A stretch of 64,000 nt of DNA from Heterotrichella gracilis (taxonomy: Eukaryota > Sar > Xanthophyceae > Tribonematales > Xanthonemataceae): assembly GCA_032358255.1 (NCBI GenBank), contig JAULBX010026496.1:124001-188000 (forward strand), read 5' to 3'. Made by a program: the position numbers and the translations under genes. Below are positions 1 to 59,820 of the stretch, one piece after another. The notes beneath the pieces are model-generated. The model searched no databases and was not told where the DNA came from. It was given only the letters and a program-made list of their open reading frames with translations. Position 1 is the first letter of the stretch; every line of letters begins with the position of its first letter.

Positions 1-211
1 GAGGAAAGTATAGACCCTAAAGCGGGTGCATGCGGCGTACCAGCCAGTCGTGTGTAATCTGCACGGGTGGGGATTTGGGTAGGGGGTGGGGGGTGTATTG
101 GAGTAGCATTGAGCATGGGGTCAAAGTGCAGATTGTTACCGCTTGCACGGGTGGAGGGCGGGTTTCATGTGTAAGGTTTGGGTGGTTAAGGTGTTAGGGT
201 TTCCCCATCTG

Positions 212-355
212 TTGATCGATGTCCAATCTTGGCAGCTAACCATGAGCCGCATGGGTTTTGGATTTATACTTAAGGGTTTGGGTTGTTTAGTTGGTAGGGT
301 TTACTTACCGATTGGTCAATGTCCGATTTTGCCAGCTTGACCATGAGGCGCATGA
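212..355 (-). repeat. Two decayed copies of the donor side of SET-gene exon 3
   Basis: The last 45 or so bases of exon 3 (411-455 side), coding MRLMVKL...D.DQS and its donor, recur about every 100 bp further into the intron, near 311-355 (MRLMVKLAKSD, with a good GTAAGT donor) and near 212-255 (MRLMV, then diverged and out of frame). TTTAGGG-like motifs lie between the units. Confidence 0.7.
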
Positions 356-410
356 GGGTTTAGAGTTCCGCATCTGGGGTTTGAGTTGTTAGGGTTTAGG
401 GTTTCCTTAC

Positions 411-1654
411 CGATTGGTCGACGTCCGATTTGGACAACTTGACCATGAGGCGCATGGGGATCTCAAAAATGAGGTCACCTTTCTGCACGGGGGAGCAAAA
501 CGGTTAGCCACCAAAACCCTACTCAAATCCTAGCCAGGGGGCTCTGAAAACCCTAGCCTGGCAGGGTACACCAGGTTGCATATGGGGTGTGTGAGGGATG
601 GGCGCCGTTATTTGGCAAATAACCCTGTTCTCGGACATGGATGTGTGAAGTGGCGTATCAACGCCCCACAAACGACGGCGCAAGCGTGCAGGACACGCGT
701 AGTGCACAGCTTGTCTGCATTGTCTTCGTTTGATTGATCCTGGCATGTGTGCCTGTGTGTGGCTTGGGGAGCATGAGTGGAAAGTTGTGGGTGGTTCGCG
801 AGCTGCACCGGGTGTTTTTGAGAACCATGGACATGTGTGACGAGCATGCAATGCACATAGTTCCCCCTGAAGGCTGCACCCTTTCCTCCCTTGTTACCTC
901 GACGTTGTTGTTTGCCAATGCCCCCCTGATGCAGGTCTCACACGCCCTCCCAATGTCAAAATTGACCTGAGGCACATGCAGCGTTTTAATTTGGTGGCAC
1001 AATGGCTCAATACCTCAATGGCATTACTGCGTTGGGGGCAAAAACCCTATTATGGGTTCAGGAGCAGGGGTTTTAGGGGGGGGCTTTGCACCCTTTGGTG
1101 TGGCCTGCCAGAGCTTTCACAGCTATCAAGGGTTATTGATAGCTGCTCAATAGGTGGCTGATTGGCACCGTCACATGTGGTGCCAGAACCCTACCCAAGG
1201 GTTTGCCGGGACCACGTGCACGTTGTAAGGTTTAAGTTCCCCCTGTTCAGCAGCTGGCCCCTCGCTGGCACCCACCGTGAGTCCATACTTCCCCACCATG
1301 GGTTCACAGGTGGCGCATGTAGGATTTAGGGTCTTCATGCTCATATCAAGACGTGTGCGATTTTGTGATGGCTTTAGGGTTTATCAACATCGTGTGGCTG
1401 TAGGGTTTAGGGAGGTGGGTTCAGGGTTAACCCTAAACCTACATGCTTGATCATTCACATGCCTTTGAGTATCAAAGCATGTTGGTTTAGGGTTTAGGAT
1501 TTAGGTTCCAAGCACGCACCGTCCCGCCGTTTTTTCTCAACCACTCTATGAGCGCCAGCTCAGCATCTGTCGCCTCGCTGGCACCCTCACACAGGCCCAG
1601 GCCAAACATCACCACCAGGGCCACCATCACCACCCTGCCACACTGTTGCTTCAT
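411..1654 (-). CDS. SET-domain protein methyltransferase (Rubisco LSMT/SETD class), N-terminal exons, partial
   Basis: Three exons read right to left: 1520-1654, 898-966 and 411-482, all in phase 0 with GT-AG borders; the gene continues past the left edge. Exon 1 begins with ATG at 1654 and encodes a hydrophobic signal-like N-terminus (residues 8-22, VVMVALVVMFGLGL) followed by ALIEWLRKNGGT. Exon 2 gives IGRACETCIRGAL and exon 3 gives KGDLIFEIPMRLMVKL. The order WLxxxGG, then GR...C.RG, then KGDLIFEIP is the known start of the split SET domain of Rubisco large-subunit and SETD3/SETD6-type lysine methyltransferases, which methylate non-histone proteins using SAM. The catalytic C-terminal half is outside the window, so substrate and activity cannot be judged. 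A secretory-like leader instead of an obvious plastid transit peptide is odd for this class. Family assignment is inferred from these motifs only. Confidence 0.72.
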
Positions 1655-9100: not shown

Positions 9101-12087
9101 CTCCTCCCCACCGCCCTTCACTCCACACCCCTTGCTACCACCAAGGGGTATTGGAGTATCGAGTGAAAAGAGGAGGTTCAGGTCGTACAGGGGCTGGGGC
9201 CCATACCCCCGGGGCCACCACAGGCGGTAGGGGGGCGGGACATCAAACTGCATTTAGAGGGGGGCAGGGAAATTGGGTTGCATAAGGCCAAGGGTAATAA
9301 AATAATAATAGGTCCTTGCATAAGGCCCAAGGGCACATGGGCTGCCCACGATACACAACATGTAAATGCTCGTTTAGAAAGGGTACGAACAATATTAGCA
9401 CATGGTCAAGTGGCGCAAACTTGCGCACGCTGACTGCCATTCTGGCGATGCTGTCGATATGCCTGTAACTTGAAATTGTGACACCATATTGAGGGGTCCA
9501 GCAGTACAGAAGGAGTAGAGGAAGCTGAACGCACTGCACCATACACCCTTGCCACATGCTGTATATACGCGCGTGTGTATAAAGTGAGCCCAAAGGGTTA
9601 GACACAAACCCTCCTAGAGCTCATGTCACCCACCTTGCTCGCCAAAATTATGACCCCTCGCCACATTCACAAACACTCATAACCCTTATGACCCATAAAA
9701 ACCTATCCCCTCCCCCACCTTGATCGTCACCACATTCTCCCCCTCATGCAAATTCTGCGTGTGTGGTGTGGCCCCCCAGTAGGCATACCCTGGGAAGCTA
9801 GCGTTTAGGGTCTCACCAAGGGTTTGCATTGTCACTCCAAACAGACTGCATAACTGGAATGCAGGTAAACAACCAACTACTCTACTCATTGAGTTGCCCT
9901 CCCCCCACCTTGATCGTCACCACATTCTCCCCCTCCACCAGGTTCTGTGCGTGTGTGGTGCCCCCCCAGTAGGCATATCCTGGGAAGCTGGCGCTGAGGG
10001 TTCCGCTGAGGCCAGGCGCAGGGGAGCGAATCACAGCATCCACAACGACGGCGATGGTGCCCCCGGAGGAGTGCAGCTGGCGCACATTTGCACCTGAAGA
10101 GGGGGATTTAGCGCGCATTTTAGGGGTTCAAATGTTTGTGCAGTGCTGCAATGGCTGTATGCCGTGACCCGAGAAAGGTATCCAATGGCGATTTCTAAAC
10201 CCGCCAGAAATTTTGCGCTTTATGTGAGACAAAAGTTGCCATTTCGCCAGTTCCGACCCTGATAAGGGTACCTGCTGCACAGCCCCCAACCCTAAGCAAG
10301 GGTTTGTATAATCCCCACCACCGCCACATCCCACCCACCCACCTGTGATCAGGGGGGAGGAAAATGCCACCAGGGAAATGGGGCCCGCCACCCCTTGGGC
10401 CGCAAATGCGGGCCCCCAGTCCCACCCGAAATCTGACGCGGGCTTGCGCAGCATGTTGTAGTTACCCAGATAGCCAGGGCCCTGCACAGGGGGGCTGTGA
10501 AACATGTGCCGCTGATGCAGAAGGGGTTGGGAGGAGGAGGGAGGTTTCCATGTAACCACGCCATCTTTTCTTCATTGACATAGGAAAGTTGTCAGGAAAA
10601 CTTTCTTTAATTATGAATCAAAGTGTGTGCATGATTGTAGCTCAGATGAATGGTGGTGCCACGACAGGCATGGCAGGCATACAAATGGCATTTTCTACAC
10701 AGGCAAAGCTACACTTGCAGTTACAATTACATCCGCATTTGCATTTTCAGTTACACAGATAGGAGACAAGCGCTGAAAATGACAATCTCTGTGGCCAGCA
10801 AGTGAAAAACACTAAGCTTTTCCACCCCTCACCTTGAGGTTGGGCAGGGGGTATGGGTACTCAGCTGCCCTCTTATCGGCCTCAGGGGGTGCGGGGTTGA
10901 TCGTGATCTCGATAACGTTTTCCCCTTGCTTCAGCAGCTGCTTGACTGGTATGTGGTACTCCCTGCAGGAAGGGTTCATTAGGGTTTCATCAAGGTCCTC
11001 CTCTGTATGCAATGCCTGCTTATGGTTCCTGTTGGTGCAGTGCATTCTGGTTGTTGTGGTGCACCTGGACCTTTGCACTCAAACTTTTTACCTTAAACCC
11101 TTGACCACTGCACCACCTAGGGGAGAGGCACGTCCCTAATCAGCATGCAATTTACGCAACACAGCCGCACCAATCGTAAACACTTCACCCTGACGTACCA
11201 AGCAGTACTCGATCCGTATCATGGCCATGGGTGCATACCTCGTTGACCCACCACGAGGTGTTATGCGGCTGTAGAAACCCTAGCAAAACCCTACCGCAAG
11301 CCCTCACACACACACACGCAGCCCCACCTGAAGGCATTCTCCACTCGAGCAGCCACCTCCCCGTTCACCCTGATCTCCGCTATGGTATCCACCCCTTGCA
11401 CCACCAGCTCCACTGTTGTGTGCGCTAGGATGGCCTGAGGGAGTGACACCTGGCGCCGCCACCGCCACTCCTCCCCTCGCACCCACGCATAATCACGCTC
11501 CCCGTACCTGCGCCACAAGTGCGCACCCTTGGCTTGGTCCGGGTGTATCCTAGGAGAGGGTTTTGTGGGGGTGGGGAAGGTGTTTGGGTGGAGGTTTGTA
11601 GGGTTCCAGAGAGGCTACCGCCTGGAAGGGTTGTAAGTATGGGCCAAAGGTGGTGCACATAGTGTGAGCCTGAAGGTGTCGAGAACCCTAGAATAGAGTT
11701 CAAGATGGCTGGGTTGCGCCTCTCGTGTCCCAAGCTTTGCAACCCTGGCAGCATCCACGCGGTGCATAACCTAAAGTAGGGTTTTGCCAGACTTTGGGTA
11801 TTTGCACGAGGTCAGTAGGGGTTTAGGGGCTATGCATGCATACTCAGCGCAGCATCTCATCTCGCAACCAGCTCGTTTCCGCACCTGTACAGCGGGTTGC
11901 CTATGATCCCCGCGCTTCCCAGTGTGGACAGCGCGTATCCTGGGAGCTGCGCGTCCACGCGGATGCTCCCATTGCCATTGCTGAGGGTCCACCCGGGTCC
12001 CGACAGCCGCACCTCCTGAGCGGCGGCCATCGCCGCGCATACATACACCGCAAGAGCCGCCCAGGCCCCGCGTAACGCCGCGGGCAT
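3136..12087 (-). CDS. MANBA: Beta-mannosidase, glycoside hydrolase family 2, secreted or membrane-anchored
   Basis: Eighteen exons (right to left): 12087-11885, 11507-11328, 10962-10833, 10481-10343, 10093-9909, 9247-9039, 8733-8636, 8423-8191, 7883-7786, 7391-7230, 6852-6655, 6288-6225, 5989-5876, 5601-5418, 5108-4861, 4431-4285, 4159-3858, 3619-3136; 1,125 residues, all phases match. It would release terminal beta-mannose from mannan or N-glycan oligosaccharides. Signal peptide at residues 1-24. Family motifs in order: [57 protein letters not shown] (acid/base Glu about 485), FVSEFGSQS (nucleophile Glu about 581), [14 protein letters not shown] and [15 protein letters not shown]. After the beta-domains that normally end the enzyme come a low-complexity linker and a hydrophobic segment at about 1045-1068, predicting a membrane anchor with a roughly 55-residue tail. 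Intron 7 has a GC donor. The acceptor of exon 16 and the donor of exon 17 are the least certain borders. Confidence 0.9.
5378..5417. repeat. CAC trinucleotide microsatellite next to a splice donor
   Basis: A run of CACCAC units on the plus strand reads as GTG repeats just after the donor of beta-mannosidase exon 14 on the minus strand. Confidence 0.8.
7438..7625. repeat. Imperfect tandem repeat of about 60 bp in beta-mannosidase intron 10
   Basis: The phrase CAGCCTGTGGCATGTGGTA and close variants recurs about every 55-60 bp (three clear units plus degenerate flanks). It lies wholly within the intron between exons 7391-7230 and 7883-7786 and contains no exon sequence. Confidence 0.7.
9719..9812 (-). 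repeat. Partial tandem copy of beta-mannosidase exon 5 inside intron 5
   Basis: The donor half of exon 5 (9909-10093) is repeated about 190 bp downstream: [20 protein letters not shown] here against [20 protein letters not shown] in the exon, with the same ATCAAG|GTGGGG donor. The acceptor half is absent, and a TTTAGGG motif sits where similarity ends. It is probably skipped, because using both copies would duplicate a strand of the beta-domain. Confidence 0.85.
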
Positions 12088-13867: not shown

Positions 13868-16800
13868 ATGGGTGGGTGTTTCAGCACAAACCATGGGGCG
13901 GGGTCGGACGACGACGAGGACGGAAAACCCTACGGAGGGTCCAAATCCCGGTCCCCCACGAGCAGCAAATCGCAGGCGGAAGAGTCCGAGGCCTACAACC
14001 CCCAGAGGGTGGTCACCTTCCCCGACAACCAAAACCCTTTCCTAGGGTCTGGATCCGAAGATGACAGCGCCAGCTTGGCATCAGTGAGCTCTGATGATGA
14101 CAGCAGTGACATTGCTTCCAACGAGTCCTCATCCACCCTCCCCTCCCTGGATCGGTCCAGTGAGCACCCCAGCGCGCGCGCGCCCTCAGAGGTTTCATCA
14201 GCCAGGGCGCCCTCTTCAGCCGCCGCCACCACCAATTCCTACTACGCTTCGGAGGGCAAGGGGGTGAAAAAACCGAAGAAATCTCGAGCCCTCCCACCCG
14301 AACCTGAGCCAGAACCAGCACCCCTTCCAGAGATTACCATACCTGAACCCAAGGTTACCCTACCGGAACCTACGATTACCCTACCTGAACCCTTGGTGAT
14401 ACCGGTGGCAGCCACCTCACCACCATCCCCTCCCCCCCCACGGCCGGAAGCACCCGCATCCACTTCCGCGGCCGATGGCGGTGGCGGCGGCGGCGGCGGC
14501 GGTGGTGGTGGTGGTGGTGGTGGTGGTGGTGCGACGGGTGGGGGGTCAGCGGCGTCGTTTTACAACAGCAGCCCTGGGAGTACGGCCAGCGTGGGGATGG
14601 GCAGTGGAGGCAGGGGGGTGGCGGCGCTGGTGGCGGGGATGTCAACCGGGGATGATGACGTGCGAGGTAACTGACTGGAAAATTTAATGCGCCTTGGGTT
14701 CCTGTTGCTGCTCCATCATCTGACATAGTGCATGCCCCTATTGGGATGCATCTACATAGTGACTCCCTTTCATGTGAGCTTGAATTGGATCTGGCGTTGT
14801 TGCTAATAACGAGTGAAGCAATGCCGTAGTGGGTGTCAACGCCAAGCATTACGCCGACACCCCCCACCCCCCCGCACTCCTGCAGTCCCCGCCACCATGG
14901 GTTCCTCAACCAGCCCCGCCACCCTGCGCTCCCAATCAGCCAAAGATTTCAAACCCCCGCAAGCGCAAGGCGCATCCCCAGCCAACCGCCGCTCCTACTC
15001 CCTCTCCGGCCCCAGCATCGACCTCCCAAGGGGGGCGGCAGGGAAAGTGAAACGGAGGCTGACGCTGGATGCTGCGGCTGCGAAGCGGCAGGCGGGGGGG
15101 GTTGCGCCAGAGAGTGCGTACCCTCGCACACTGGATGATGACTTTGTGGACGAGGATTTGCCTGAGGAGGTGCCCGAGGTGAGAGGAAGGGTTTTGGTGT
15201 CAACCCTAGCTGATGTACGCCCTAGCGTGAACCCGAGTGTGACCCCTAGGAGTTGCCGGAGGTGAGGGGGAGCTTGGTATAGGGTGTCAGTGTAAAATCC
15301 ATGTGCCCTTTCAGGTTGCATGGACGCATTATTACTGGGTGGAGGGTACAAAACGGGACCAGGAGCGCGTCATAATATTAGTTAGCAACCCTTTATTCGC
15401 GCTATGTGCGCCATAAGAAATTACACAATGGGAATTTGACTGCTAACAAGTGGGTAATGAAGTGGCTTTCTTATTCATAACCATGATGACAATCCTATGT
15501 CTGAATATAAGCGATAAAATCCGCCTCCCCAGGTGCGCATGCCCCGCGCCATCAAGCTGTCCTCCGAGGCCCTCAAGAAGGAGGAGCAGATCAATGCCAT
15601 CGCCCTGCGCGCACTGGAAACCAAGATGGCGCAGGCGGCTGTCCAAGCAGCGCAGCAGCCCCCTTCACAACCCCAGCCAAGGGTCCGGCCAGAGCCCGAG
15701 GAGCGGGAGGACGGGGGTTCCGACATCCACCGGGTGGATTCTTCCCTACAGGAGGCTATCGCCTTTGCGAAGGCTGCGGATCAGGAACAGGCGGCTGCGC
15801 TTGAGGCTGGTGGTGCGGAAGCGGGTGTGGATGTGGGTGTGGATGGGGATGGGGATGCGGGTGTGGATGTGGGCGGGGATGTGAGTGGGGACGCGAACGG
15901 CCCACCACCTGCAAACGAAGCCGACGCCCCGCCCTCCCCTCCACCCCCACCGCCGGTACTGGCGCCGGTGGCTGTGTCTCGGGTGGGTGGTGTGCGGGGG
16001 CGGGTGGGTGAGGGGGACAGCCCCATGGGCCGCCACATGTCGCCCCACGACCTGCCCACCTCAGCAGATAGCCCTATGGGTCGCCAGGTGGCGCTCCACG
16101 GGAGATCCGCCTTTGCAGATAGCCCAAACGGTCGCCAGGTGGCATCCTCACAGGGCTCTGCAGCCAGCCCCACGGCCCGCCACGTGGCGGGGCCACATGC
16201 ACCCGACCCGCTGTCAGACAGCAGCCCCACCACCTCGCCCACCTCCGCACCACCCACCGCCAAGGCCCCCCCCCGCCACCACCACCACCACCACCACCAC
16301 CCCGGGGGCGCCGACGCGCTCCCCACTCTGCCCGAATCCTCGGCGGTGGTTCACTCCCTCTCACGCCAGCCCAGCAACGCCTCCCTTGCCTCCACCCGGA
16401 GCGCCTTCAGCCAGATGAGCCAGTCCAGCAGGGGGGGTGGGAATTCCTCCCCTCTCACCAAGCTACTCAAGCAGGAGAGCCTAAAGCTGGCCAAGGCTGC
16501 GCATGTGGTGGGCGCCATGCAGGTGAGTGTAGGGTTTAGGGTTTAGGGAACCAGTGTGGTGGGCAGCGTTCATGTGAGTTTGGGGTTCAGGGAACCAGTG
16601 TGGTGGGCGCCATGGTGAGGTTGAGACCAGGGCCAGGTGAGGATCGCCCAAACAATTTTGCAGAAGCCTGCTTCGTTTTGGACATTTTTATCACCGTGCT
16701 ACCGTTTATACTTGCGCACGATCCAGCGGTACAGCCAGATCAGCAGTGTGTCCTACATGCCTTGCGCCCACCAGCCTGCTGCCATTTCGCAATTTATTGG

Positions 16801-23200: not shown

Positions 23201-23580
23201 TTTGTCAGCTGCCTAGTAAGAGTGAGTGCAGAAGGCACAAGGACAGGGTTGACTGGACAGTAGTTGTGAGGTACAGGGTTGACATACGCGTTGTCAAAGG
23301 TAAGGTTCAACAGTAACGTGTGGAAGGCCCGCCCATTACCTGCCGCAACCTCAGCCCCAGAGTCCAGTGCACACCGCAACACCAGTGGTTGCCCTCTTTG
23401 CAAGTGGACTATGCTTCGCTGCTGGAGCCGTACGCGCAGCTTCAGCCCAGCCACCCCTTGTAGGCATACAGCGTTGGCTTGGTGGCGGTGGGAGGTGGAC
23501 TGGTGTGCTGCAGGGGCTGTGCGGTGGTGGGGCAGGCTGGAGAGGACTTGTGCGCCATGGCTACTCCGTGCAACCTCCAT
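20246..23580 (-). CDS. FIST (N and C) domain protein, possibly organelle-targeted
   Basis: Ten exons: 23580-23340, 23175-22961, 22733-22595, 22508-22422, 22263-22149, 21969-21855, 21587-21442, 21283-21034, 20790-20637, 20427-20246; 547 residues, all phases match. FIST modules are predicted small-ligand sensory domains found in bacterial signalling proteins and in eukaryotic F-box proteins such as FBXO22. The FIST_N part spans PDVAFVFLSPAFHGQYH and HMIGCSVR; PQASVLGGLAS follows. The C-terminal FIST_C signature is GRGQGLFGEANRDS, then AGMFCNGEIGQVNG near the end. No F-box is visible. The first exon is rich in Ser, Arg, His and Gln with few acids and could be a transit peptide. The start at 23580 (MEVARSSHG) is uncertain because the frame stays open to an ATG at 23778. 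Biological role unknown. Confidence 0.82.
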
Positions 23581-43650: not shown

Positions 43651-45561
43651 CTAGGATGGCGTATCGTAACATACTATATCATATTCATGCATGACGTCGT
43701 TGGCCATGGCCTGAGACTCAGTCGTGATCCCTGCATCCACATGCGCCTTGGCTTCAAGCCCACGCAGCTGCGCCACATGGCCATGCACCCACCGCACGGC
43801 AGCCAGCCTGCCACCGTCATCCACCTCCGCACCACCCGCCTGCCCCACTATTTCCTCCATGCTCATGCGCCTCCCCTGGGGCTGTCTCTCTGGTGGCCGG
43901 TCGCTGCCGCTCTCCACCGCTATCTCCCACCCCTGCCCAACCACCCGCACCTGCTGATCGTGCTCCGTGAGGCGAAATCCAGGGTGCAGGGGGGCGGTGA
44001 GGGTCACGCCAGGGCACCGGGGAGCATGCAGACGGGTGAGTTTGGGCAACGCCGGGAGCTGAATGTAACCCTGGTCCGTGCATTGCTCGTGTGAATCATT
44101 TTTTGTCACACTCAAGTGCTGCAGCGTAGTTGGCGCGTGGGGCAGCAGCAGTGGCGCTACAATCCGAGAACCGCTCCACCACAGGCATAAGCTGCGCAGG
44201 GGTGGCAGGAGGCGAGCCCAGTCATCCTTCACAAGTAAAGGTGTCTCGAGCATGTATGAATACTGGGAATCGACGTGGAGCTGGAGTTTCTCTAGGCCAT
44301 CGGGCCACCAGGGTGATGCGCCATGTGGCAGCTTCAGTGTGGCGTCGCTGACATACAGTGTCAAGCTGGTCAGCGCGGCTGCAGGGCGCAGGTCCAATGC
44401 AAACTGCGTATTCATCACTGAGAGAGTCAGGCTGCGCAGCTGGGGAAGGCTGCTGAGGGGAAGGCACCGCATAAGTGGAATTAGGAGGTTGACGTGCATC
44501 ATCGCACCCACGCTGAAATGGGCGTCAAGCACCGATGGCAAGTGTGGAAGAGGGCGCAGGGTGATGTAAGCTGGGTCAGGCCCGGAGAGGTGCACCAGGT
44601 TCAAAGAAAGGCTGGTGAGCGCTGTTAGGTGGCTGAGGGGTGCATATACCGCTCCCCATCCCTCATTCTCCGCTGTAGAATTGCTACGTTGTTTGCTACC
44701 ATATGCGACCCCGGATAGATCCAACACCTGCAGTTGATGGAGGCGTGCGACCGCCGCAAAGAGCTCTTCAAAACACTGCAATGGCGCTGTATCCGAGACA
44801 CAGCGCACTCCAAGCTGCAACACCTGCGCGTGTGCCGGCGCCATAGCTGTCACCATGCGCAAACCCTGCTCAAAGCTGCACTGAAAACGAAGGCAAAGCT
44901 CTCTTGTGTGGTGCAGGTACTTGTGCAGGCTGTCAATCGGGCACAAGTCATCCCGCCTCTTGCCCACCAACTCCCACAGCACGCCTTGGTTGTGCAGCAG
45001 GTTGTGCCAGCGCTTGCACACCGTGGTGGCGCGGGTGCGTTCAGGCATACCCAGGCACAACAGCACCTGCGGCGACAAGAACAACGCTGTTATTGCTGTG
45101 CCACTGTCTTAGTGTGTGGCGTTGGTACCACTGTCAGAAAGGTAGCACTTTCCCAGGAGAAAGAGCGGCGCATGACCACCGCAGCACAAGGCACAGTACA
45201 TTCGCATACATGTATTGATGCCACCTGGTCGCAGCAATTGTGGCATCTCCACTCCTTATCTACTGTGGCAGAAACTAGTGCGACAAATAGCTTGCTACCT
45301 TCAATGTGAGTAGTCACTGGGGGCTTGGTTCCCCACTAGACAGTGCAGGGTCTAATAAGTCGCTGGAAAGTGTCCTGAACCATGAGGGCAGGTGGACTAG
45401 AACAGTGAACAGCAGTTCATAGTTATACCACACAGTACCCTATCACGCGCAAGCACCTTGCAAGGCAGCCCTACCTGTGCCAAGGCGTCATCAGGCAGGC
45501 TGTGAATGTGTTTTTCTGGGACAGGCTGCGATGCCTCCTCCTGTGGGTTCACAGAGCCCAT
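43651..45561 (-). CDS. F-box protein with leucine-rich repeats, tandem copy 2
   Basis: Exons 45561-45475 and 45066-43651; 500 residues from MGSVNPQ, or 23 more if the in-frame ATG at 45630 is used. F-box halves IHSLPDDALAQ and VLLCLGMPERTRATTVCKRW are identical to copy 1. LRR-like stretches are HLTALTSLSLNLVHLSG and LPLSSLPQLRSLTLSVMN. From about residue 70 the two proteins diverge to roughly two thirds identity by eye, mostly in the putative recognition region, while the intron and the first part of exon 2 are almost unchanged. It likely acts as an SCF substrate receptor; target unknown. Confidence 0.82.
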
Positions 45562-46397: not shown

Positions 46398-49039
46398 CTA
46401 CGCCTTCCACGCAAAAACGTCCACCACATCCTCTGCCAGACCCGACATGGGAGCATCCCTGTCCAACACAAAGTCAGGCCCGCTGAAATCGTTCTTGCTC
46501 ACGTGGTACCCCGCTAGGGTAAACAGCTGCAGGGTGCGCGCAGCCTTTGCCCGCTCAGTCAGCCACAGCTTGACCACAAAGTAGGGTATCCCCGAGTGCA
46601 GCAGGGTGTGGTTCCCCCCCTCCAGGATCTGTGATTCGTACCCCTCTGTGTCCATCTTCACCATCCCGATGTTCATGGTGTCCAAGGGGGCCACGTTATC
46701 CAGGGGGAGGACCTCGTCCAAGCGGCTGGTCTGCACGTGGTTCTTGACTCGGAAACCATCCGGGATGTGGCCTGTCATCTGGTCCACGCAAAGAGAAATA
46801 AGATGAGAAAACACGCAAATGATTGGATGGATGGCGTCAGTAAATAGGGTTGCAAGTGGAGCCTGTCCTAGGACATGCACGTTACTCCTTATGTGGCGCC
46901 TACATTATTACTAATGTAAGTCCGGGACATTATACACAACTGCTATCATGTTTATTACTGTCCAAATACAAGGTACCAGCAGGAGGACTTTAATACATCA
47001 CGTGTGATTTTAAAGCCCTCCTGGTATCAGCAACCCATTGGCAACAATCACTTGCGAAACATTTCTGCCTCAAAAGAGAGGATGCTTGACGGGCAAACAA
47101 TCCAAAATAGAATTTAAAAATAACCAAGCCAGAACAGGTTGTAGGCAGTCCCCATCTCCCCCACCTGGTCATCGCAGGCTGTGCGCGCGTCCGCGTGCTT
47201 GTTGGTGTGTGAGTACATAACGCACTCTGCACTGCGGTCGCCCAGCGCCTTGTTGACCAGCACGATGTGGTGCGCAAAGTCTGGGTTGAGGCACAGCGAG
47301 GAGCGGAACATCATCTCGTTGTCCACCATGGGCTCAAAGGCTATCACCTGCAGGGCGACCATCGAACCGATGTCGGAAACCGCGTAAGCAGAGCCGGGAG
47401 GCAAACAAATGGCGCGCGTTTGTACGCCAGAATGTATTGGGTTGCGTTGCATGCGCTCCAGCTTCACAATCTGTAAGCTAGATGTACTGCTGGAATGCAC
47501 TGCTAGAATGCACTGCACTGCGTTGCATTACATTAAATGCGCAGAAAAAAAGAGTCTGGGTTGAGGCACAGCAAGGAGTGGAACATCGTCTTATTGTCAA
47601 CCATGCGCTCAAAGGCAATGAGCCTAGGGGAGGGAAACACATTCAAAAGTGCCGGACCGCCAAGGGCATTGCCTGGTGGTGGCGTAGGCTTGTGAAAGGC
47701 TGCAGAATGCAGTGTCACTGATGAATACATTACTTAATAACCCCAAAATATTTTACCTTGTATCCCACACTGGCCATGGACAGCGAGAACCAGCCCGTGC
47801 TTGCGCCAATGTCGAAAAAGGTGACGTGCTGCGGGGGCAGGCTGTGCGCGGCCGCATACTTGGCCAGGGCCCCCTGCATCTTGTGCAGCAGCGGCACCTC
47901 TGAGCTCCCTTGGAGGAGGATGTCTGATGAGGTGGCGTCGTTGGAGTCGTACACATACATGGTGAAGGGCTGGCTGACGTTGGGTATGAGGATGGGGTGG
48001 CGGTCCAGGACCAGCTTGTAGTAGGGCGGGGGGCGGCGCTTCACCTCGGGGAACACGCTGCGGCAGAAGAGAACAAACGAGAACCAATTGAACTTAACAT
48101 ATTTAGAATGTTTATTTTATTATTATGATATAATTGTAGAGCCTGTCTTTGATTGTGCTTCATTTGAGTACAAATATACGCAGAAATAGCTAAACAGTTA
48201 CACTACGGAACTGTTCTCAAACAGGCGCGCAAGACATTAAAACGAAGATGAAGGTGGTGCCCCTCGCTCACACTACCCCTAATGCCCATTACCTGTGGCA
48301 GCAAACAGTTGCACCTTAAAGCCTACACCTTAGACCCTAGACCCTTACCTGTGGCAGTAGAAGTTGGGCTGCGTGAGCGCGTCCCTGAACAGCTCGGTGT
48401 GGCAGTTGACGTTACACCCTAAACCTAAAACCTAAACCCTGTTAACCTACCCCCTCGACCGTTACCTGTGGCAGTAGAAGTTGAGCTGCGTGAGCGCGTC
48501 CCTGAACAGCTCGGTGTGGCGCAGCACGCTCAGCCATTCGTGCTGCTTGGCCACATGCCGGTGCACAACGTGCTGCGCGGCTGCGTCCCGAATGCTGATG
48601 GCCGCCTTGGTGGCGTTCACGTGGCGCTTCTGCAGGGAAAAATAAATTAGTTGATGATTATTTCAATACATATATTATCAAATATAATGTAGTTGCGCAG
48701 CCTGTCCTTGAACAGGCGCATTTGTTGAGGAAATGGGGATAGCGAAGGAAGGGGAGTTTCCCTCCCCACCACCACCATCACCCAGAAGGGGCATCGCCCT
48801 CGTGTCCATTACTTTCCCACCTGGAGAGACAGGCCCTGAGCTGCCGCGGTCTCTCGATCCTTGGTCAGCTTGTCGATCTGCGTGCGGTTCCCCGCCAGCA
48901 TCTGGTCATGTGCGCGCGCAAGGTCTTCGATGGTCTGCGCCAACCTGCGCCCCCGGTGGGGCAGGTGTGCTGCGCTGCCAGCTGTCAGCAGGCATGTGAG
49001 GAGGAGGTGGGCGAGGAGGGCGGTGGTGGCGGCTGGCAT
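46398..49039 (-). CDS. FkbM-family SAM-dependent methyltransferase, secretory
   Basis: Exons 49039-48821, 48629-48466, 48057-47757, 47347-47165 and 46778-46398; 415 residues, all phases match. FkbM enzymes typically O-methylate sugars or polyketides; here a sugar or glycan in the secretory pathway is inferred. The N-terminus (MPAATTALLAHLLLTCLLTAGSAAHLP) is a signal peptide or anchor, followed by a predicted helical stretch (LARAHDQMLAGNRTQIDKLTKDRE). SAM motif I is FFDIGASTGWFSL (Asp210), motif II VIAFEPMVDN, and the FkbM hallmark is GMVKMDTEGYESQILEGG (Asp332, Glu334). The protein ends DVVDVFAWKA. Its neighbours do not share an evident pathway, but a GT34 glycosyltransferase and beta-mannosidase in the window are also secretory glycan enzymes. 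Confidence 0.87.
46975..47025. repeat. Small hairpin repeat, copy 2 (FkbM intron 4)
   Basis: ACCAGCAGGAGGACTTTAA at 46975-46993 is followed 16 bp later by TTAAAGCCCTCCTGGT (47010-47025), its near-complete inverted repeat. It shares the 15-mer AGGAGGACTTTAATA with 16906-16920. Confidence 0.55.
47556..47622 (-). repeat. Acceptor-side echo of FkbM exon 4
   Basis: Minus-strand reading CCTAG|GCTCATTGCC... codes LIAFERMVDNKTMFHSLLC, against VIAFEPMVDNEMMFRSSLC in the real exon about 270 bp downstream. It ends after NPDS, where similarity stops. Confidence 0.85.
48347..48405 (-). repeat. Donor-side echo of FkbM exon 2
   Basis: CHTELFRDALTQPNFYCHR with a GTAAGG donor repeats the end of exon 2 (RHTELFRDALTQLNFYCHR, donor GTAACG) about 120 bp into the intron. 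CCCTAAACCTAAAACC separates the two. Confidence 0.88.
48650..48722. repeat. AT-rich dispersed intron repeat with CCTGTCCTTGA core
   Basis: An AT-rich stretch ending GCGCAGCCTGTCCTTGAACAGGCGCAT. Related sequences lie at about 48090-48232 (GCCTGTCTTTGA ... CAAACAGGCGCG) and 56860-56995 (GCAGCCTGTCCTTGAAGGGGGCG), all in introns. Confidence 0.45.
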
Positions 49040-50977: not shown

Positions 50978-53877
50978 ATGCGGCGCGCAGCCCAAGCAGC
51001 GCACAGGTGCCTGGCCGCCACCTGGCAGGCGCACCACCACCCCGCCCTCCCCTTCACAATACCCACCGTATCACCCCCTGTAGCGGCGCTCGCCTGCTGC
51101 CCCCACCTGGCGCATGGCTTCGCCACAGATTTCAAGGTACCATACCTCTTGTGCAAACCGCTTGGCAAGGGTTTGTTTGCTGTGCAAAAATCCTTCCCAT
51201 TCTTTTGAAGCACTTGTGACCGTTGCACACCCCACGTACAGCCCTTCTTGGCCCTGTGAACCCTCTGTGAAACCCTCACCCTTGTGCATCCAACCCTCTG
51301 GAAACCCTGGCGGAACCCTCTGGAAACCCTGGCGCGACCCTTGTGAACCCCTTGGCTGCAGTCTGCGCTCTTCAGCGCCCCTGCCCACTCCCTTGCCACC
51401 AGCGTGCCGGTTGAGGTGCCCACCCAACAAGCCGCTTCCAGCTTATGGCAAAGGGGGCTGCTGTACGTGGCTGGCTACTACAGCAAGGAGAGCAGGCTAC
51501 TGAGAGGTGGGTTTAGGGTTTCTGCGTGGCTATAAGGGTTTGTAAAGGTAGAGCAGGCTGCAGACAAAACCCTAGACAACAGGCTGCTACAGCAAAGGAG
51601 AGCAGGCTACTGAGGGGTGGGGTGTTGCATGGCTGGGGTTTTCGGTATGGTTGTGGGGTTTTGCATGGCTGCAAGGGTTTGCGTAGCTTCTGGTAGGGTT
51701 TTGCATGGTTGCAGGGTTGTGCCAGCATCATCTCATTGAGTTTCACACGTGCTGTTAGTACACCGTCAGGCATGAATGTTGACTGGCACATTCTTGCACA
51801 GTGCTTGAACTTTGAGTTTTTGTAATGCTATTTGTAACGTAGGACTTTCATGGCATGGCCCACCGATGACCTTCAATGTGTACTGTCGCCTGCACTCAAG
51901 TGCCAAGAGCCTCTACGTAAACCCTACACCCAAAAGCTAAACCCTAAACCCTAAACCCCATTGCTGTCCAGGTGCCAGGAGCCTCTACGCTTAGACCCTA
52001 AATCCTAAAGCAAAACCCTAAACCCTGATCCGCATTGCTGTCCAGGTGCCAAGAGCCTCTACGCTTAGACCCTACATCCCAAAGCTAAACCCTAAACCCT
52101 AAACCCCATTGCTGTCCAGGTGCCAAGAGCCTCTACGCTGGGGTCACAGACCAAGCCACAGACCCTAGGTTGTGCGAAGGTGAGGACAACATACACTGTA
52201 ACCAGGGGAGGAACAAAATGTTCACCAAAACGGCATGCGCACCCATTTCATTACCAGCTGACCCCCCATCCCCCACTTCCCAACCCTCGCCCAGCCCTCG
52301 CCCAACCCCCATCCCCCACCTCTCGCCGCGCTGCACCCGCCTGCCCCTTCCCTCCACCCCCACCCCCATTCCTATCTCATCCCCATTACCATCCCCCTAT
52401 TCTCCCCCTTGCAGCACTGCACCTGCCCGCCACCTTCCCCTCCACGCACGCCCTGCTTGTGCTGCACCTGTGGCTGCTGCTGGTGAGGCTGCGGGAGGAG
52501 GGGAGCGAGGGGAAGGAGATGGGCCAAATGATGTATGAGATGTTCACGGATGATCTGGAGCTGAGAGTGCGCGCTGCGGGGGTGAAGGTAGGGTTTCTGG
52601 CGAAGGTGTTCGCATATCTCGCGGTGGAAATCCCATGTGCATATTCCGGGGTGGTTACCAAAGTGCATATCTCCTTACCCACTACCCTCTCACCATGCAT
52701 GACCCTGACCCTGCTGTGTGCAGGTACGCATCAACAAGCAGCTCACTGAGCTTGAGAAGATGTTCTACGGGAGCTGCATGGCGTACGACAAGGTGCGTGG
52801 TGCAACCCTAAACCCTGAACCATAGACCCTAAACAAGTTGCGCGGTGCAACCCCTCTTTACCTCCTTGGGTGCACTTGTGACACAGCCCCTTGGCATGCT
52901 GGGCGACCTTGTATGTGCCTCACTGGCATGCACACTCACCTATTCACAACACCCAGCTGCGACGCTTTACAATACTGGGAAGTGAGTTGGCAACATGGCA
53001 TTCACACAGCCCAGCACAGCACAGCAGCATCTGGCGTGACATGGCATGCGTTAGTCAAGTCACATACAGTCAACACAGCCACATGGCATTGCTCCGCATG
53101 GCAGTTACACCAATTGCATCGCAGGACATGCGCAATATGCCCTCACTTGAATCCACATGGCGCGTTAAGGGGGATACATGTGGTGCAGGGTTTGCGCGGG
53201 GTGGAGAAACTATGCGAGGCCCTTAAACGCAACTTGTACATAGCTTAAATGCTGCTGGCGCCACATGCCATGCACATGGCGCATCAGGCGGAATACTCGA
53301 TTTGATGTAATTGGTATACTATTAGGTATTGGGATATTTGGTTATGATTACTATGATTTTTGCCGCAGGGTTTGCGCGGTGAGGAGGACCTGTGCGAGGC
53401 CCTGTATCGCAATGTGTACACAACCGACAGCGGTCCGGAGGGGAAGGCGGCGGCCAAGGTGCTAGAGCGATACGTGCGCAGGTGGGAAATACTATCAAAA
53501 GCAGACATTTAGGTCTGTATGTAACAATGGGGAGGTGTGGGTAATACATACCTAGGGTTTGTGCAACGAGTTTCCGGGTAGGATATAAGCAAACCAATGA
53601 CGTTTTAGGGTTTTGTGTTGCCTGTGCACATGGGCGCGGCTTTACTGTCCCTCTTCAAGCGCATCCTGCCTTGACTTTGTATTGCCTCCCCTGCATTCAC
53701 ATAATGCTCCCCCCTTCCCCCATCAATACCCACCCATCCGGGGCCATTTCAGCTCCCTGTGATTCCCTCGGTTCTTGATTCCCTTCCCTGTGCAGGGAGC
53801 TAGCCTGTTTGGCCAAGACCGACTCCCGGGCGGTGATGGAGGGAGCGCTGCGGTTCTCAGCGCTGCATGCGCAGTGA
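50978..53877 (+). CDS. CBP3: Ubiquinol-cytochrome c reductase assembly chaperone (CBP3/UQCC1)
   Basis: Exons 50978-51136, 51362-51506, 52120-52179, 52415-52587, 52724-52792, 53369-53481 and 53796-53877; 266 residues, all phases match. CBP3 binds newly made cytochrome b in mitochondria and is needed for complex III assembly. The N-terminus MRRAAQAAHRCLAATWQAHH is Arg/Ala/His-rich without acids, a good mitochondrial presequence. The chaperone domain runs from LHLPATFPSTHALLVLHLW through LLVRLREEG, MYEMFTDDLELRVRAAGV, RINKQLTELEKMFYG, GLRGEEDLCEALYRNVY and LERYVRRELACL, ending in a short tail (MEGALRFSALHAQ). Nearly every intron contains copies of neighbouring exon edges, making this the clearest locus for that phenomenon. 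Confidence 0.9.
51580..51614 (+). repeat. Donor-side echo of CBP3 exon 2
   Basis: GCTACAGCAAAGGAGAGCAG...CTACTGAGGGGTGGG repeats the exon 2 end (TACTACAGCAAGGAGAGCAG...CTACTGAGAG|GTGGG) about 105 bp into the intron, after TTTAGGG-containing spacer. Confidence 0.85.
51885..52119 (+). repeat. Tandem acceptor-side echoes of CBP3 exon 3
   Basis: TGTCCAG|GTGCCAAGAGCCTCTACG recurs at 51972, 52045 and, as the real acceptor, at 52120 (period 73-75 bp). A more diverged unit (AGTGCCAAGAGCCTCTACG) lies near 51899. Each unit ends in runs of CCCTAAACCCTAAA-type heptamers. Confidence 0.92.
53180..53245 (+). repeat. Acceptor-side echo of CBP3 exon 6
   Basis: GTGCAG|GGTTTGCGCGGGGTGGAG codes GLRGVEKLCEALKRNLY then a stop, against GLRGEEDLCEALYRNVY in the real exon 185 bp downstream. 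Confidence 0.88.
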
Positions 53878-55281: not shown

Positions 55282-55590
55282 TCAGAGTTCAGGGTTTAGG
55301 GTTTTCGGCTTGGCAGCCGCTGCCTTGAGCACTGCTGCCATTGCCTTGGCTGCCCCCCCCTTGGCCGCCACACCCTCTTTAGAGTTCACCGTAACAACAC
55401 CTGCAGGAACTACCGCCACACCCTCTGTATCGTCTACCGCCATACCCTCTTTAGGGTCTACGGCCACACCCGCTGTAGGCTTTACCGCTACACCCGCTGT
55501 AGGCTTTACCGCTACACCCGCTGTAGGCTTGACCGCCACACCCGCTGTACGCTTTACCACCACATCTTCTCTAGAGCCTACCGCCACGCC
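55282..55590 (-). repeat. In-frame C-terminal repeat array beyond the GT34 stop codon
   Basis: About 24-bp units code TAGVAVKP/DPKEGVAV repeats. The array is in the same frame as the GT34 protein, whose TAA (55591-55593) falls inside a repeat unit where sister units have GAG. The frame then stays open for 100 codons and ends in Ala/Lys-rich AAKAMAAVLKAAAAKPK. Confidence 0.8.
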
Positions 55591-58500
55591 TTATTTAGGG
55601 TCTACCGCCACACCCCCTGCTGCACCCTTCTCAGCTCCCGCTGGCCCACCTTCCCTCCCCTCTGGCATTGGCCGTTGCCTGCCATCGCCCCCCTTGAGGG
55701 TTTCCCCTTCCATAGCTGATGCGCTCCCCTTTCCGTCAACTGCCACGACCACTGCAGCGATATTTGCTTTCTTGTTGGGCCGTCCCTGTACGACTGGGGT
55801 GGCCTCCTGGCCTTTGGACATTGCTGCAGGCATTGAAGCTGCCTCCTTGAGATGCCCACCCCCACCCTCATCCCCATCCCCATCCCCATCGCCGTCCCTA
55901 GCTTGCGGCGGCGGTGGGGATTTTGGCGGCGGTTGGGATTCCGGCGGCGGCGGGGGCCACGTCACATACACATGCTCGGTCCTGTTCCACTCCCTTGTGT
56001 ACCGATCATCCTTCACCCCCACCTTGCCATCCACCACGTGCATGACAAAGTCCCCCGGCTGCCACACGTAGCCGCAGTGGCCAATGGCGTCGTCGTATGC
56101 GTTGATCAGGCGCTGGGGGATGACCTTCACGCGGTTCCTGTGAGCAACAAATTACGGATATAACCAGTGTTGTCATACTGCCAAAAGTCGTTTCACTGTG
56201 AAGGGGCCAAGCGCTTCCAAGTGCTCAGATTGATTGAGTTCCATAAGATGTAGCTTTTTCCATAGCCTTCAACATGCGAGTTGATTACGGATGAGAATGG
56301 CATTGCCCACTTCCCCTGTCATTCACCTGATGGCAGTGACAGGACAAGGCTGCCTGGCTGGCACAAAGCACACACGGCTGATTGGTAGCCTGGCTAAATT
56401 GCTGAAGTGCATGTAACAACACAACCTAATCTAGCGCTACCTAGTGGTCCAGAACATGTTGGTAAGGTCAAGAATATCCAAGTTCTTGCCCAGCCCTAAC
56501 ATTGAATAGGGAGATTTGTCGGCAAAGGGTCACGCTCCTGCCTCCGGAGCCATACCCCCAACAACCCCCATGCAAAACCCTAAACCCTACGCAGTTTACC
56601 TGATGGTGGGGACGTTTGTCCAGAACATGAGCGAGGCTTGCTCCCACCACTCCTCGGTCATGGGCGCATCGGTTTTGGTCCAGATGGCGGCCAGCAGGTG
56701 CACCACCCAGTCGGAGCCGCGCAGCACCAGGCTGCCTGCGTTGATGCCGTTGCAGTCGCTGGCCAGGATGACGTCATAGCGCGGGTCCAGAACCTTATCC
56801 AAGGGTAAGGAGGGCGTCATGATGATGGTGTCCAGGTCCACCTGCAACAAATTACAGACATATAATAAACAAATATAATGAAAGTAATAATAAAATGCAG
56901 CAAACCATTGAATGCGCAGTGGAATCAATATACAAATGATGAAACAATAAAAACAATAAGCAGTAAGTAGATAGCAGCCTGTCCTTGAAGGGGGCGATGG
57001 GGAGTCAGCAAAGATCAGGGTAAGGGTTTAGGGTATACAAATTAGGGTTTCAGGCTGCCCACCTGCCACACCCAGTCATGGCGATACACCTTGTCCATTA
57101 GGGCCAGGATTTTGTGCCAGCTGGGATGGCGGTCAATCCCCAAGTACTGCTCCTCCACATAGAAGTGGTAGCCGTGCAGCGTCGCGTAATCCCGCTTGTT
57201 CTTGATCGACATGATTGCCATCTCGGAGGTCAGATCGGATGAGATCACCATGATGGCGATGCCCCCAATCCTGCCCTTTGGCTTTGGGGGAGGGCGGAGG
57301 AAGCGCACGTGCTCTCCCCCCGCTGATACAGCCAAATCAGCTTGTTAGTATTATTTGCATAGTCAACATGCATTCCATTATTGCTTAGTTTACCTGCATG
57401 CCAGCATTACAGCCAGATCGACAGGCAGCCATGCACATGCGGCGCCAAGCACTTCCTAGCAAGTTGATCACTTCCGTTTCCCCAAAGCGTACTAATAAGA
57501 CAAGCAGTCCATTCTGCAGGTGCATGAGGCAGGTCCCTTATTCCCCCTACAAAGTTTAGTTTAGGGTTTAGGGTTCAAGGGTTTACCTGAGTCAGCCAGG
57601 TACTCATCCACATTAAGCTGGGAGCCAGGCAGATCCATCCAGGCCTTGACCCCATCTTGGATCACATCCAGGGCGCCGAGGGGGAGGGGGGAGGCGCTGG
57701 CGGCGGCCGCCGCTGAACCCTTGTGTAGGGTTTTGAGCGCCGAGAGCAGGGGCATCATCTGGGGCTTGTGCTTGTTTGCGATGAAGTTTGATGAGGTGAG
57801 GTCGGCTGCAAGGGTGGTGATGAAATGCGCCACGCTAGCCTGCAAGTGGGGAGGGAAGATTTGCTGATGGGGACTTTTGTACTTTTGTACTTTTATGCCC
57901 AGACTACAGTGCGCCCAAAGTGTTAAGATGAGGAAGGGACAGGGGGGAGGGGTGATGAAAATGAGTTGTGTGGCACCATAGGCACCTGCCACAGCCATCA
58001 CCAATCCCAGAGAGGTATGCACCCCACATGCGATGGACAAGGAAGAACAAGCATGTTCTGCTCAAAATGCATGCAACCCCTCGCTTACCCCACCCCAAAA
58101 ACCCTACCCGCAGCGTGTCGCTTCCCCCCTCCAGCCCCTGCACTTGCCCCTTTAGCTCCTCCCGCTGCCTGGCGCATGTCTCGGGTGAGGTGGCCAAAGC
58201 TGACACTGACTCCCGCACCTGGGGAGGGGGATATGACAGAATATGTTGCAACAAAACATGATGGAATAAATCAGTAATTGTGGGGGAGGGGGTCGAGGAG
58301 CTGGAGAGGCACCTGAGGCAAGAGGGCTACTCTGAAACTGCTCAACAATCTCCCTCGCATCCAAGTTTGTGGGACCCGAATGATCTTTGTCCTTGCCAGC
58401 GTATTCAAGCCACCATTTTCATTCACCGGTGCATGCATGAAAGAAACGGGTACAGTTCAATAATGCACTGTACCCATTACTTCCGCTGAATTACTCTTCC

Positions 58501-59820
58501 CGGCCCCCACGCACCGTCTCCCTCAGCCGCTCCTGCGCAGGCTCAAACTTTGCCTCAATTGCCTGAGTCACATGCGCCGCCACCCCGCCACGTGTCGCCT
58601 CCAGGTGTCCCGCCACCTGTTCCGCCACCTTGGCTTGGCTGGCGGCCAGGGCCAGTGAGGCGGCCTCAAGGGATGCGCGCATGGCAGACAGGCGGGCAGT
58701 GAGGCCCTGGTGGTGGCGCTGGGAGGCGGTCACCTGGAGAATAAGGAGAATCAAGGTGGATTCTGTTCATAAGCTGTTGGTATTAGGAAGTTTTCCAAAT
58801 GAACTTCCGTCTGGGAAGTTAATCAGAGTAGGTTGCAAATGCAGGTGCTGGCAAATGACCTCAATGGTAGCAAATTACCATAATTAGCAATTGCCAGGGG
58901 TATTGAGGCGGGCGATTGGCCCAATTAATAAGGTACAGGGTGCAATCAATTCTCAGTCAACATGCACTGGTGTCAACATGCACTGTTGTAAGGGAGGTGC
59001 ATCCAGCATGAAAGCAAGGGGGAAACCTGGTGCCACCAGCTCACCAGTTCTGTGCCGTCTACCGATAGTTTGGCATGCGCAGCCTGCAGGAGCTCCTGCA
59101 AAGGGGAGTAAAAACCATCACACAAATGCAAACAAGTAAATTAGCCATGTATACTCCAAAAGATATCATCCGAGAGCGGGGTGAATAGACACATAGCTGG
59201 CACATCATGCACAGCCGCATTCCGCGGATGAGGAATCGGCGCATGGAGTGCTGTAAATGAAGCGGCATCCTACACCCACTGACAAGTGGGTGCACGGCCT
59301 TGCAGTGGGTGTGCAACGGAACACAGAATGCAAACGCAAACCCTAGTCCCTAAACTCACATTTTCTGCCTGCGCCCTGCGCAGCTCAGCGGCTGCATGGT
59401 CCAGAGACACACGCAGAACCTCCTCCTGCAGAGGGGGGAGAGAGTGGGGGGTAAAATGCCAAGGGATGTAACGAGAAGGGAACCACCCGGGTGTGAGCAT
59501 AGAAGAGGCATTGGCAAGCATCTAGCCATTTGCTCAAAGCATGAGTAGCTAGTAGGGTGTGAGGCACGCTCGTGGTTTTCAAGGGGTAAAGCGGCGGTCA
59601 CAAAACCCTGAACATACTCTAAACCCTACACGCACCCTCTCCAGGACCTTGGACAGCAGCCCCGCAGTGGCCAAAAAGCCCTTCACATACCCTAACCATA
59701 GAAACCCTATCCATACCCTACACTTACCCTCTCCAGGACCTTGGACAGCAGCCCCGCAGTGGCCAGCATGCACACCAGCAGGGTACCCAGTACCGCAGGC
59801 GCAGCGGAAGACCACGCCAT
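55591..59820 (-). CDS. Golgi glycosyltransferase, GT34 (galactosyl/xylosyltransferase, GMA12/MNN10) family
   Basis: Exons 59820-59728, 59425-59360, 59095-59045, 58733-58515, 58218-58108, 57839-57587, 57322-57063, 56841-56600 and 56137-55591; 613 residues, all phases match. It should transfer a sugar from a nucleotide sugar onto a glycan in the Golgi lumen, as GT34 members do in xyloglucan, galactomannan or N-glycan synthesis; donor and acceptor cannot be told. Topology is type II: MAWSSAAPAVLGTLLVCMLATAGLL is the membrane anchor, followed by a long coiled-coil stem (exons 2-5, such as SLDHAAAELRRAQAEN and QREELKGQVQGLEG). Catalytic parts are IAIMVISSDLTSEMAIMSIKNKRDY, HPSWHKILALMDKV, the metal-binding VDLDTIIM (Asp353, Asp355), DCNGINAGSLVLRGSDW, WWEQASLMF and KVIPQRLINAY...WQPGDFVMHVVDGK. 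A Pro-rich, Asp-Gly-repeat tail ends at a TAA inside a repeat array. The coiled-coil stem is unusually long. Confidence 0.87.
55860..55895. repeat. CCCCAT hexanucleotide microsatellite in GT34 tail
   Basis: TCCCCATCCCCATCCCCATC on the plus strand codes the Asp-Gly repeat (DGDGDGD) of the GT34 tail on the minus strand. Confidence 0.8.
59630..59676 (-). repeat. Donor-side echo of GT34 exon 1
   Basis: Minus-strand GGCCACTGCGGGGCTGCTGT...CTGGAGAGGGTGCGTG repeats the end of exon 1 (GCCACTGCGGGGCTGCTGTC...CTGGAGAGG|GTAAGTG) about 90 bp into the intron. Confidence 0.88.

Follow-up and report, generated by a model that had tools for sequence, protein, structure and literature searches.

Short internal tracts of telomere repeat are known from mammals, where they are inserted during double-strand-break repair and in some cases carry a target duplication ascribed to staggered breaks. 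The consulted parts of these reports give duplication alone at 6 of 130 loci in rodents, 4 of 25 in primates and 3 of 66 in the horse, and place 31% of human tracts in introns, a share judged compatible with random insertion (PMC2246262, PMC7215372). We examined a 64,000-nucleotide window of the xanthophyte Heterotrichella gracilis (bases 124001-188000 of contig C398) in which exon edges are repeated inside the adjoining introns as "echoes", in part with telomere-type sequence between the copies. As in the mammalian cases covered by those parts, tracts are short and internal and sometimes have a direct target duplication. Here, however, about half of the tracts have flanking repeats, the repeats reach about 100 bp, and the tracts crowd at exon edges.

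The "patch-mediated" duplications of plants are kin to those that arise by fill-in of staggered breaks. Fill-in of 3' overhangs by polymerase (Pol) alpha-primase guided by CST, part of the telomere-end machinery, yields small tandem duplications, and the induced overhangs in the staggered-break study went down to 43 bp (PMC8355091). In both systems a stretch, there the one between two break points, is doubled, with repeats of 16-101 bp here. The sections consulted describe directly joined copies and mention neither telomeric filler nor an exon-edge focus, whereas here, where a tract is present, the two copies are separated by an insert. Intron gain by tandem genomic duplication or break repair, in the portions consulted, likewise places duplicated exon sequence with AGGT-type splice sites beside or inside an intron (PMC3443670; potato, PMC4974935). 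There a new intron arises inside an exon; here an existing junction is straddled and an existing intron lengthened. Introners, as far as the account was consulted, also shape many introns of one genome by insertion (PMC9860276), but no common transposable sequence was present among two fillers searched here. Among titles and abstract openings in a largely open-access literature, no description of telomere-filled duplications at exon edges was found. Telomeric insertion with target duplication is already known from mammals; its frequency here, the long repeats and the focus on exon edges appear to be new.

Repetition of coding edges

The window was analysed together with the first 200 kb of contig C2, giving a main data set of 264 kb from a genome of 68.5 Mb in 903 contigs. 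Genes were modelled ab initio with a simple purpose-written gene finder, which yielded 49 genes and 340 introns after convergence. The modelled donor was close to CAG/GTRNGT and the acceptor close to TGCAG/G (slash at the junction), with a median intron of 290 bp and a median exon of 157 bp. Two kinds of error were seen in the models: the two carbonic anhydrase genes and PTOX were fused, and the first gene of the window was missed, with no model in the first 3 kb. Echo counts used 289 of the 340 predicted introns, the 51 introns shorter than 120 bp being excluded, and low-complexity repeat pairs (9 in the window, 22 in C2) were removed before counting.

Echoes were scored by aligning the terminal 60 exon bp with the adjoining intron of the same gene (Smith-Waterman score of at least 18). 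Own-intron matches were obtained for the last 60 exon bp in 29 of 289 introns and for the first 60 in 21 of 289. Three controls, a length-matched intron of another gene, the shuffled own intron and the reverse complement of the own intron, each matched 0 of 289 exon ends; among exon starts they matched 2, 0 and 0 of 289. Deeper in the exon, 61-120 bases from the edge, matches numbered just 4 of 202 and 1 of 203. The original prediction had described exon-edge repeats in named genes of the window: all nine regions hold local direct repeats of that kind, and the counts extend the pattern beyond the window. At least one echo was present in 44 of 289 introns across 21 of 48 genes (37 introns at a score of at least 20, 27 at a score of at least 25). 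If the 264 kb are typical, simple extrapolation gives about 11,000 affected introns genome-wide.

A sliding 40-bp segment, scored at the same threshold, reached its maximum at offset -20 (22 of 217, 10.1%); at a point 120 bp inside the exon just 1 of 156 matched, and segments lying entirely in the donor-side intron matched in 0.5-3.7% of cases. Introns with echoes were longer (median 388 vs 272 bp, n = 46 vs 294; Mann-Whitney P 8e-6), which fits intron growth by repeated duplication. Longer introns also give more room for matches, a minor effect since the controls matched so rarely.

Exon edges exceeded intron segments by 2.2, 3.4 and 4.4 times at scores of 18, 22 and 25 in introns of at least 260 bp (gene bootstrap 1.3-3.5, 2.1-6.9 and 2.1-14.0). 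Simulated uniform duplication with loss inside exons gave ratios of 0.47-0.98 over six parameter sets. The verdict of this null depends on event age, and an age-matched test was therefore used, from which overlapping tandem copies and low-complexity pairs were excluded. Edge pairs of at least 90% identity stood to intron-only pairs of at least 80% as 10:10, compared with 27:140 in the uniform simulation (Fisher P 0.0012). At cut-offs of 85% and 70% the counts were 17:21 and 43:262 (P 2.7e-5), and at an equal cut-off of 88% they were 12:2 and 33:70 (P 1.7e-4). Relative to intron-only duplications, edge duplications were about five times commoner than in the uniform simulation. Without its youngest events the simulation gave 30:124, 46:271 and 33:46; shuffled introns gave zero edge echoes and 4 intron-only pairs at 70% or above. 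The closest model made events eightfold likelier when exon-centred (38:41, 52:85 and 45:19), and a fourfold preference gave 23:51, 34:102 and 26:20.

The original prediction had described echoes at splice sites. Ends of coding sequence also echoed in the 400 bp downstream (8 of 48), as did starts in the 400 bp upstream (5 of 43), with controls at 0. Since start and stop codon edges echo as well, coding edges, not splicing, are marked, and splicing is probably not the cause of the echoes; a splice-specific mechanism is weakened by start and stop edges echoing about as often. Either the process is focused on coding edges, or coding DNA breaks preferentially and the events at its edges are the only survivors. 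At C2 135568-135700, 21276-21647 and 28975-29349 and at five further gene ends, the stop codon and the start of the 3' flank are duplicated downstream, like splice edges.

The 24 in-register donor echoes had a median of 10.5 intron bases past the junction in common and a median exon part of 48 bp; for the 20 in-register acceptor echoes the values were 21 bases and 52.5 bp, the common intron length being inflated by conservation of the splice signal in the working copy. That length is about that of the splice signal, and many copies therefore end near the junction, with unrelated sequence beyond. Several begin or end exactly at an exon boundary. Intron growth by repeated duplication, as first proposed, fits the edge excess, the spread of identities and the longer introns, but plain tandem copying accounts for only part of the cases. 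Copies are decayed to different degrees, as had been noted, with identities from about 70% to 97%; realigned rows in which overlapping repeats matched themselves (identity 1.00) were excluded. The period of 75-190 bp was too narrow, spacings in the named genes running from 44 bp (16534/16578) to 275 bp. That donor copies lie downstream and acceptor copies upstream follows from calling one copy intronic; at one locus each in the FkbM and GT34 genes both copies are modelled as coding. At FkbM 47278-47619 no junction is modelled inside the copy.

Telomere-type tracts between target copies

The 264 kb held 62 longer telomere-type tracts (23 in the window, 39 in C2), compared with shuffled means of 0.2 and 0.0. 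Genome-wide, the exact telomere 21-mer occurred 834 times and the reversed string 0 times. Of the 62 tracts, 53 were intronic and one exonic. By a count independent of duplication detection, 22 of 53 intronic tracts started within 30 nt of a donor, with 6.4 expected (P ~7e-8), and both strand senses were enriched there. The density of telomere hexamers on either strand was about 18 per kb over the intron's opening 25 bases, a value partly inflated by the donor consensus itself; the next 25 bases had 11 per kb and bins past 50 bp had 0-9.5 per kb. Strings of donor then G-tract numbered 143 genome-wide, G-tract then donor 27 and donor then C-tract 75; these and the acceptor strings given below are not independent events, as overlapping matches within tracts and tandem echoes are included. 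Donor-plus-telomere strings recur at steps of 66-169 bp at C211:207569-207857, C307:19470-19662, C339:6523-6645 and C244:223251-223386, where several donor echoes seem to lie together. A telomerase gene is present in the genome, which encodes a telomerase RNA-binding domain (PF12009, two adjacent matches, E 4.8e-13 and 8.0e-9).

Telomere heptamers had been noted as frequent in the spacers between copies. Echo spacers were indeed enriched, with 32 telomere hexamers per kb vs 13 in matched segments of echo-free introns (P 0.002), but the tracts are not incidental to the repeats. The two flanks of a tract matched each other at a score of at least 14 in 31 of 62 tracts (50%), compared with 3.9% of mismatched flanks and 11% of random positions; at a score of at least 20 the values were 34%, 0.3% and 4.2%. 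An independent set comprised 27 tracts outside the 264 kb, with three exact repeats each and taken in listing order (L001, inside the 200-kb stretch, was dropped). Here a score of 14 was reached by 14 of 27 tracts, by 5.0% of mismatched flanks and by 3 of 27 with reverse-complement flanks; for a score of 20 the values were 10 of 27, 0.4% and 0 of 27. Because half of the tracts sit between two target copies, the tract looks like an insert and the echo like its target duplication.

Forty pooled cases with a score of at least 16 had a duplicated target (T) of 16-101 bp, median 46.5. In 26 of the 40 the filler resembled neither outer side, as expected for an insert and not for the copying of a unit in which the tract was already present. 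Flanks of this score were found for 19 of 37 tracts within 45 nt of a splice site vs 5 of 16 interior tracts, and copies were flush with the tract within 2 bp on both sides at L003, L037, L040 and L041. The target overlapped the tract by the full 2 bases allowed on 16 of 80 tract sides, with about 5 expected (counted by eye, sides not all independent). This is only a hint of in-register bases such as those described for mammals in the consulted part of PMC7215372. Around the central tract of L003, read by eye on the reverse strand, the duplicated stretch holds acceptor-like and donor-like sites a few dozen bp apart, and a whole micro-exon may have been duplicated around the tract.

Break repair and its alternatives

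We consider it fairly probable that the echoes are scars of staggered double-strand-break repair with fill-in, in which filler is left between the copies and edge-spanning events survive and lengthen introns. A staggered break with single-stranded overhangs of about 15-100 nt, the polarity of which we infer, would open in or beside a coding segment. Fill-in of the overhangs on both ends would duplicate the stretch T between the nicks, and the ends would be joined with telomeric or other filler between the copies. The product would be T-(TTTAGGG)n-T or T-(CCCTAAA)n-T, the arrangement present at about half of the examined telomeric tracts. Telomerase probably extended one 3' end with the telomeric filler before the ends were joined, and the telomere fill-in machinery probably completed it; by analogy with the systems above, telomeric insertion and fill-in of the CST/Pol alpha-primase type would be combined here. 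Selection would remove events inside exons. Events spanning an exon edge, stop codon or start codon would survive because one intact coding edge and splice site remains in use, the other copy becoming intron or flank, and repeated events would lengthen introns from their ends. If breaks prefer coding DNA, nucleosomes on exons or RNA-DNA hybrids are guesses at the reason. An echo in which the GT or AG is preserved might be used as an alternative splice site.

Several results weigh against staggered-break repair. Some copies are full tandem units (PTOX 38002-38268, C2 140711-141069), and 14 of the 40 T-tract-T cases resemble tandem copying of a tract-bearing unit, with a stretch like the filler on an outer side; nor are the 40 all separate, several of them sharing an array. 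Half of the tracts have no flanking repeat (13 of 27 in the independent set scored below 14). Just 16 of 46 echo spacers hold at least two telomere hexamers and the other 30 hold fewer: most fillers are not recognisably telomeric, and these may be decayed or of other origin. Two non-telomeric fillers searched genome-wide gave only their own match, with no repeated element and no source elsewhere. Echoes are also unevenly spread, one gene holding 7 of 51. Finally, a uniform null with only old events (0.15-0.35 substitutions per site) gives edge ratios of 1.8-4.2, matching the observed all-age ratio, because intron-intron pairs decay faster. Only the age-matched test, in simulations that assume repeats of 30-110 bp and filler of up to 80 bp, and the tract positions oppose that model.

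The tandem units, the 14 tract-bearing cases and the old-event model (1.9, 2.6 and 4.2, beside the observed edge ratios) speak for ordinary tandem duplication, by slippage or unequal exchange at random places, with some units carrying telomere-like sequence and edges staying visible longer through one conserved copy. We regard this as unlikely: once age is matched, counts come to about five times what uniform duplication predicts, telomere tracts gather at donors whether or not a duplication is present, and the filler in 26 of the 40 cases is unlike both outer sides. CTAAA and CTAAC can serve as branch points, and G runs have a role in splicing. Telomere-type repeats might accordingly be retained near splice sites as splicing aids, the C-rich strand offering CTAAA or CTAAC and pyrimidines without AG before acceptors and the G-rich strand offering G runs after donors. 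Near acceptors only the C-strand was enriched: 10 of 29 C-sense tracts ended within 40 nt of an acceptor (4.7 expected), compared with 2 of 24 G-sense tracts (4.4 expected), and the last 25 bases before the acceptor held 15.4 hexamers per kb on the C-rich strand vs 1.5 on the G-rich. Genome-wide, C-tract then TGCAGG occurred 353 times, vs 185 for G-tract then TGCAGG and 181 for TGCAGG then C-tract. Both strands are enriched near donors, however, the flanking direct repeats are left unexplained, and avoidance of AG upstream of the acceptor may alone account for the acceptor bias. Splicing aid is an improbable explanation.

An introner-like mobile element inserting with target duplication would leave direct repeats on both sides of the insert, as seen here, but repeat length is variable (16-101 bp) and the two searched non-telomeric fillers had no other genome copy; we give this reading very little credence. 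Copies that start or stop exactly at an exon boundary would be expected if spliced RNA or cDNA were written back into the gene, and eight junction-crossing alignments of 270 had looked suggestive of such a template. Joining the exons, however, left match length unimproved, with a gain of at least 5 in 1.1% of 264 real vs 1.0% of control joins, and spliced RNA as template was rejected. Start and stop codon edges echo as well, and write-back is extremely improbable. An assembly artefact has next to no likelihood: divergence between copies is mostly about 3-30%, 21 of 48 genes on two contigs carry echoes, and of 20 additional tract loci, on 8 other contigs, 10 have flanking repeats.

Staggered-break repair could also have a wider role, which we regard as possible but doubtful: telomere-type end processing at coding-edge breaks may be a main engine of intron growth in this lineage. 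Duplicated junctions and telomeric filler would then serve as new splice signals, C-strand repeats acting as AG-free acceptor tracts, shifting exon boundaries and occasionally creating introns. If so, intron length and position would be partly written by telomerase. Where introns obtain their sequence has long been debated. With scars that are frequent (44 of 289 introns), still legible and often telomere-tagged, one route of intron growth could be measured for its rate, polarity and genetic requirements, and this genome supplies many natural cases next to splice sites.

Echo loci in the window

The loci in the window were as follows.

161-457, minus strand: donor-type echoes of a putative exon in the first gene ("SET" in the original prediction), with copies at 356-457 and 254-355, a decayed third from about 161, and a telomere-type spacer (tract 389-404)
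9708-9811, minus strand: echo in the beta-mannosidase gene, copying the exon end 9897-10001 (intron start 9908), period 189, 90 of 105 bases identical
16523-16608, plus strand: intron start in a low-complexity ("disordered") protein gene; donor, then tract 16530-16548, then repeated exon-edge pieces at 44-bp spacing
26524-26673, plus strand: first carbonic anhydrase gene; exon edge 26524-26576 (intron start 26572), tract 26578-26607, echo 26620-26673
29902-30196, plus strand: second carbonic anhydrase gene; exon edge 29902-29995, echo 30105-30196
38002-38268, plus strand: donor edge of PTOX (38002-38056), recurring at 38108-38162 and 38214-38268 in full tandem form with a period of 106
38395-38686, plus strand: acceptor edge of PTOX (38632-38686), repeated upstream at 38534-38588 (98% over 55 bp, with abrupt ends) and at 38395-38449
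47278-47619, minus strand: exon piece of the FkbM-like gene, 47278-47344, recurring in an intron at 47553-47619; no junction inside the copy in the gene model
48313-48520, minus strand: FkbM-like gene, with its exon end and donor at 48452-48520, a tract at 48424-48440, an echo at 48335-48403 (96%) and a further telomere-type stretch at 48313-48345
51473-51621, plus strand: CBP3 donor edge 51473-51511, tract 51509-51521, echo 51582-51621
51900-52139, plus strand: CBP3 acceptor edge 52120-52139, preceded by echoes of period about 74 with telomeric tract in the gaps
52790-52848, plus strand: 31-bp telomere-type tract (52804-52834) at a CBP3 donor, its direct flanks forming a 14-bp imperfect repeat
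53185-53420, plus strand: CBP3 acceptor edge 53365-53420, echo 53185-53240, just 4 intron bases in common
59604-59765, minus strand: GT34 gene, exon end 59694-59765, echo 59604-59673, telomere-like spacer

The window's cleanest cases lie in the FkbM, GT34, CBP3 and PTOX genes. Around a single PTOX intron there are three donor-side and three acceptor-side copies, the working edge included in each set. The FkbM echo is 69 bp at 96% identity with the donor included; the CBP3 donor-side copies share 37 of 40 bases, and the GT34 echo has 38 identical exon bp with diverged donors. Two loci, FkbM 48349-48520 and GT34 59681-59765, have both of their copies modelled as coding, and either copy may be the intronic one. 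Short telomere-rich introns are modelled between the two coding copies (FkbM 48385-48465, GT34 59681-59727), a structure of the kind that intron creation may be expected to leave.

Pfam and Protein Data Bank (PDB) matches back the names of the two carbonic anhydrases, PTOX/AOX, CBP3 (Ubiq_cyt_C_chap) and GT34. The name beta-mannosidase has a PDB match (E 3e-81), and its 365-residue piece gave zero Pfam matches. FkbM scored 21.8 bits, slightly under the Pfam cut-off of 22.7 bits. Rfam at gathering thresholds gave zero matches in the window, and zero transfer RNA genes were detected by ARAGORN with the bacterial code.

The two carbonic anhydrase genes (Pro_CA) lie in tandem at 25390-31828, immediately upstream of PTOX. 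Across the final exon and intron predicted for GT34 runs a 24-bp minisatellite of eight in-register copies (55360-55643). Adjacent paralogous genes at 40432-42383 and 43651-45561 have near-identical intron ends; a search of the first alone detected an F-box. A gene with FIST N and C domains lies at 20246-23580, and one with a glutathione S-transferase C-terminal domain at 61480-63025.

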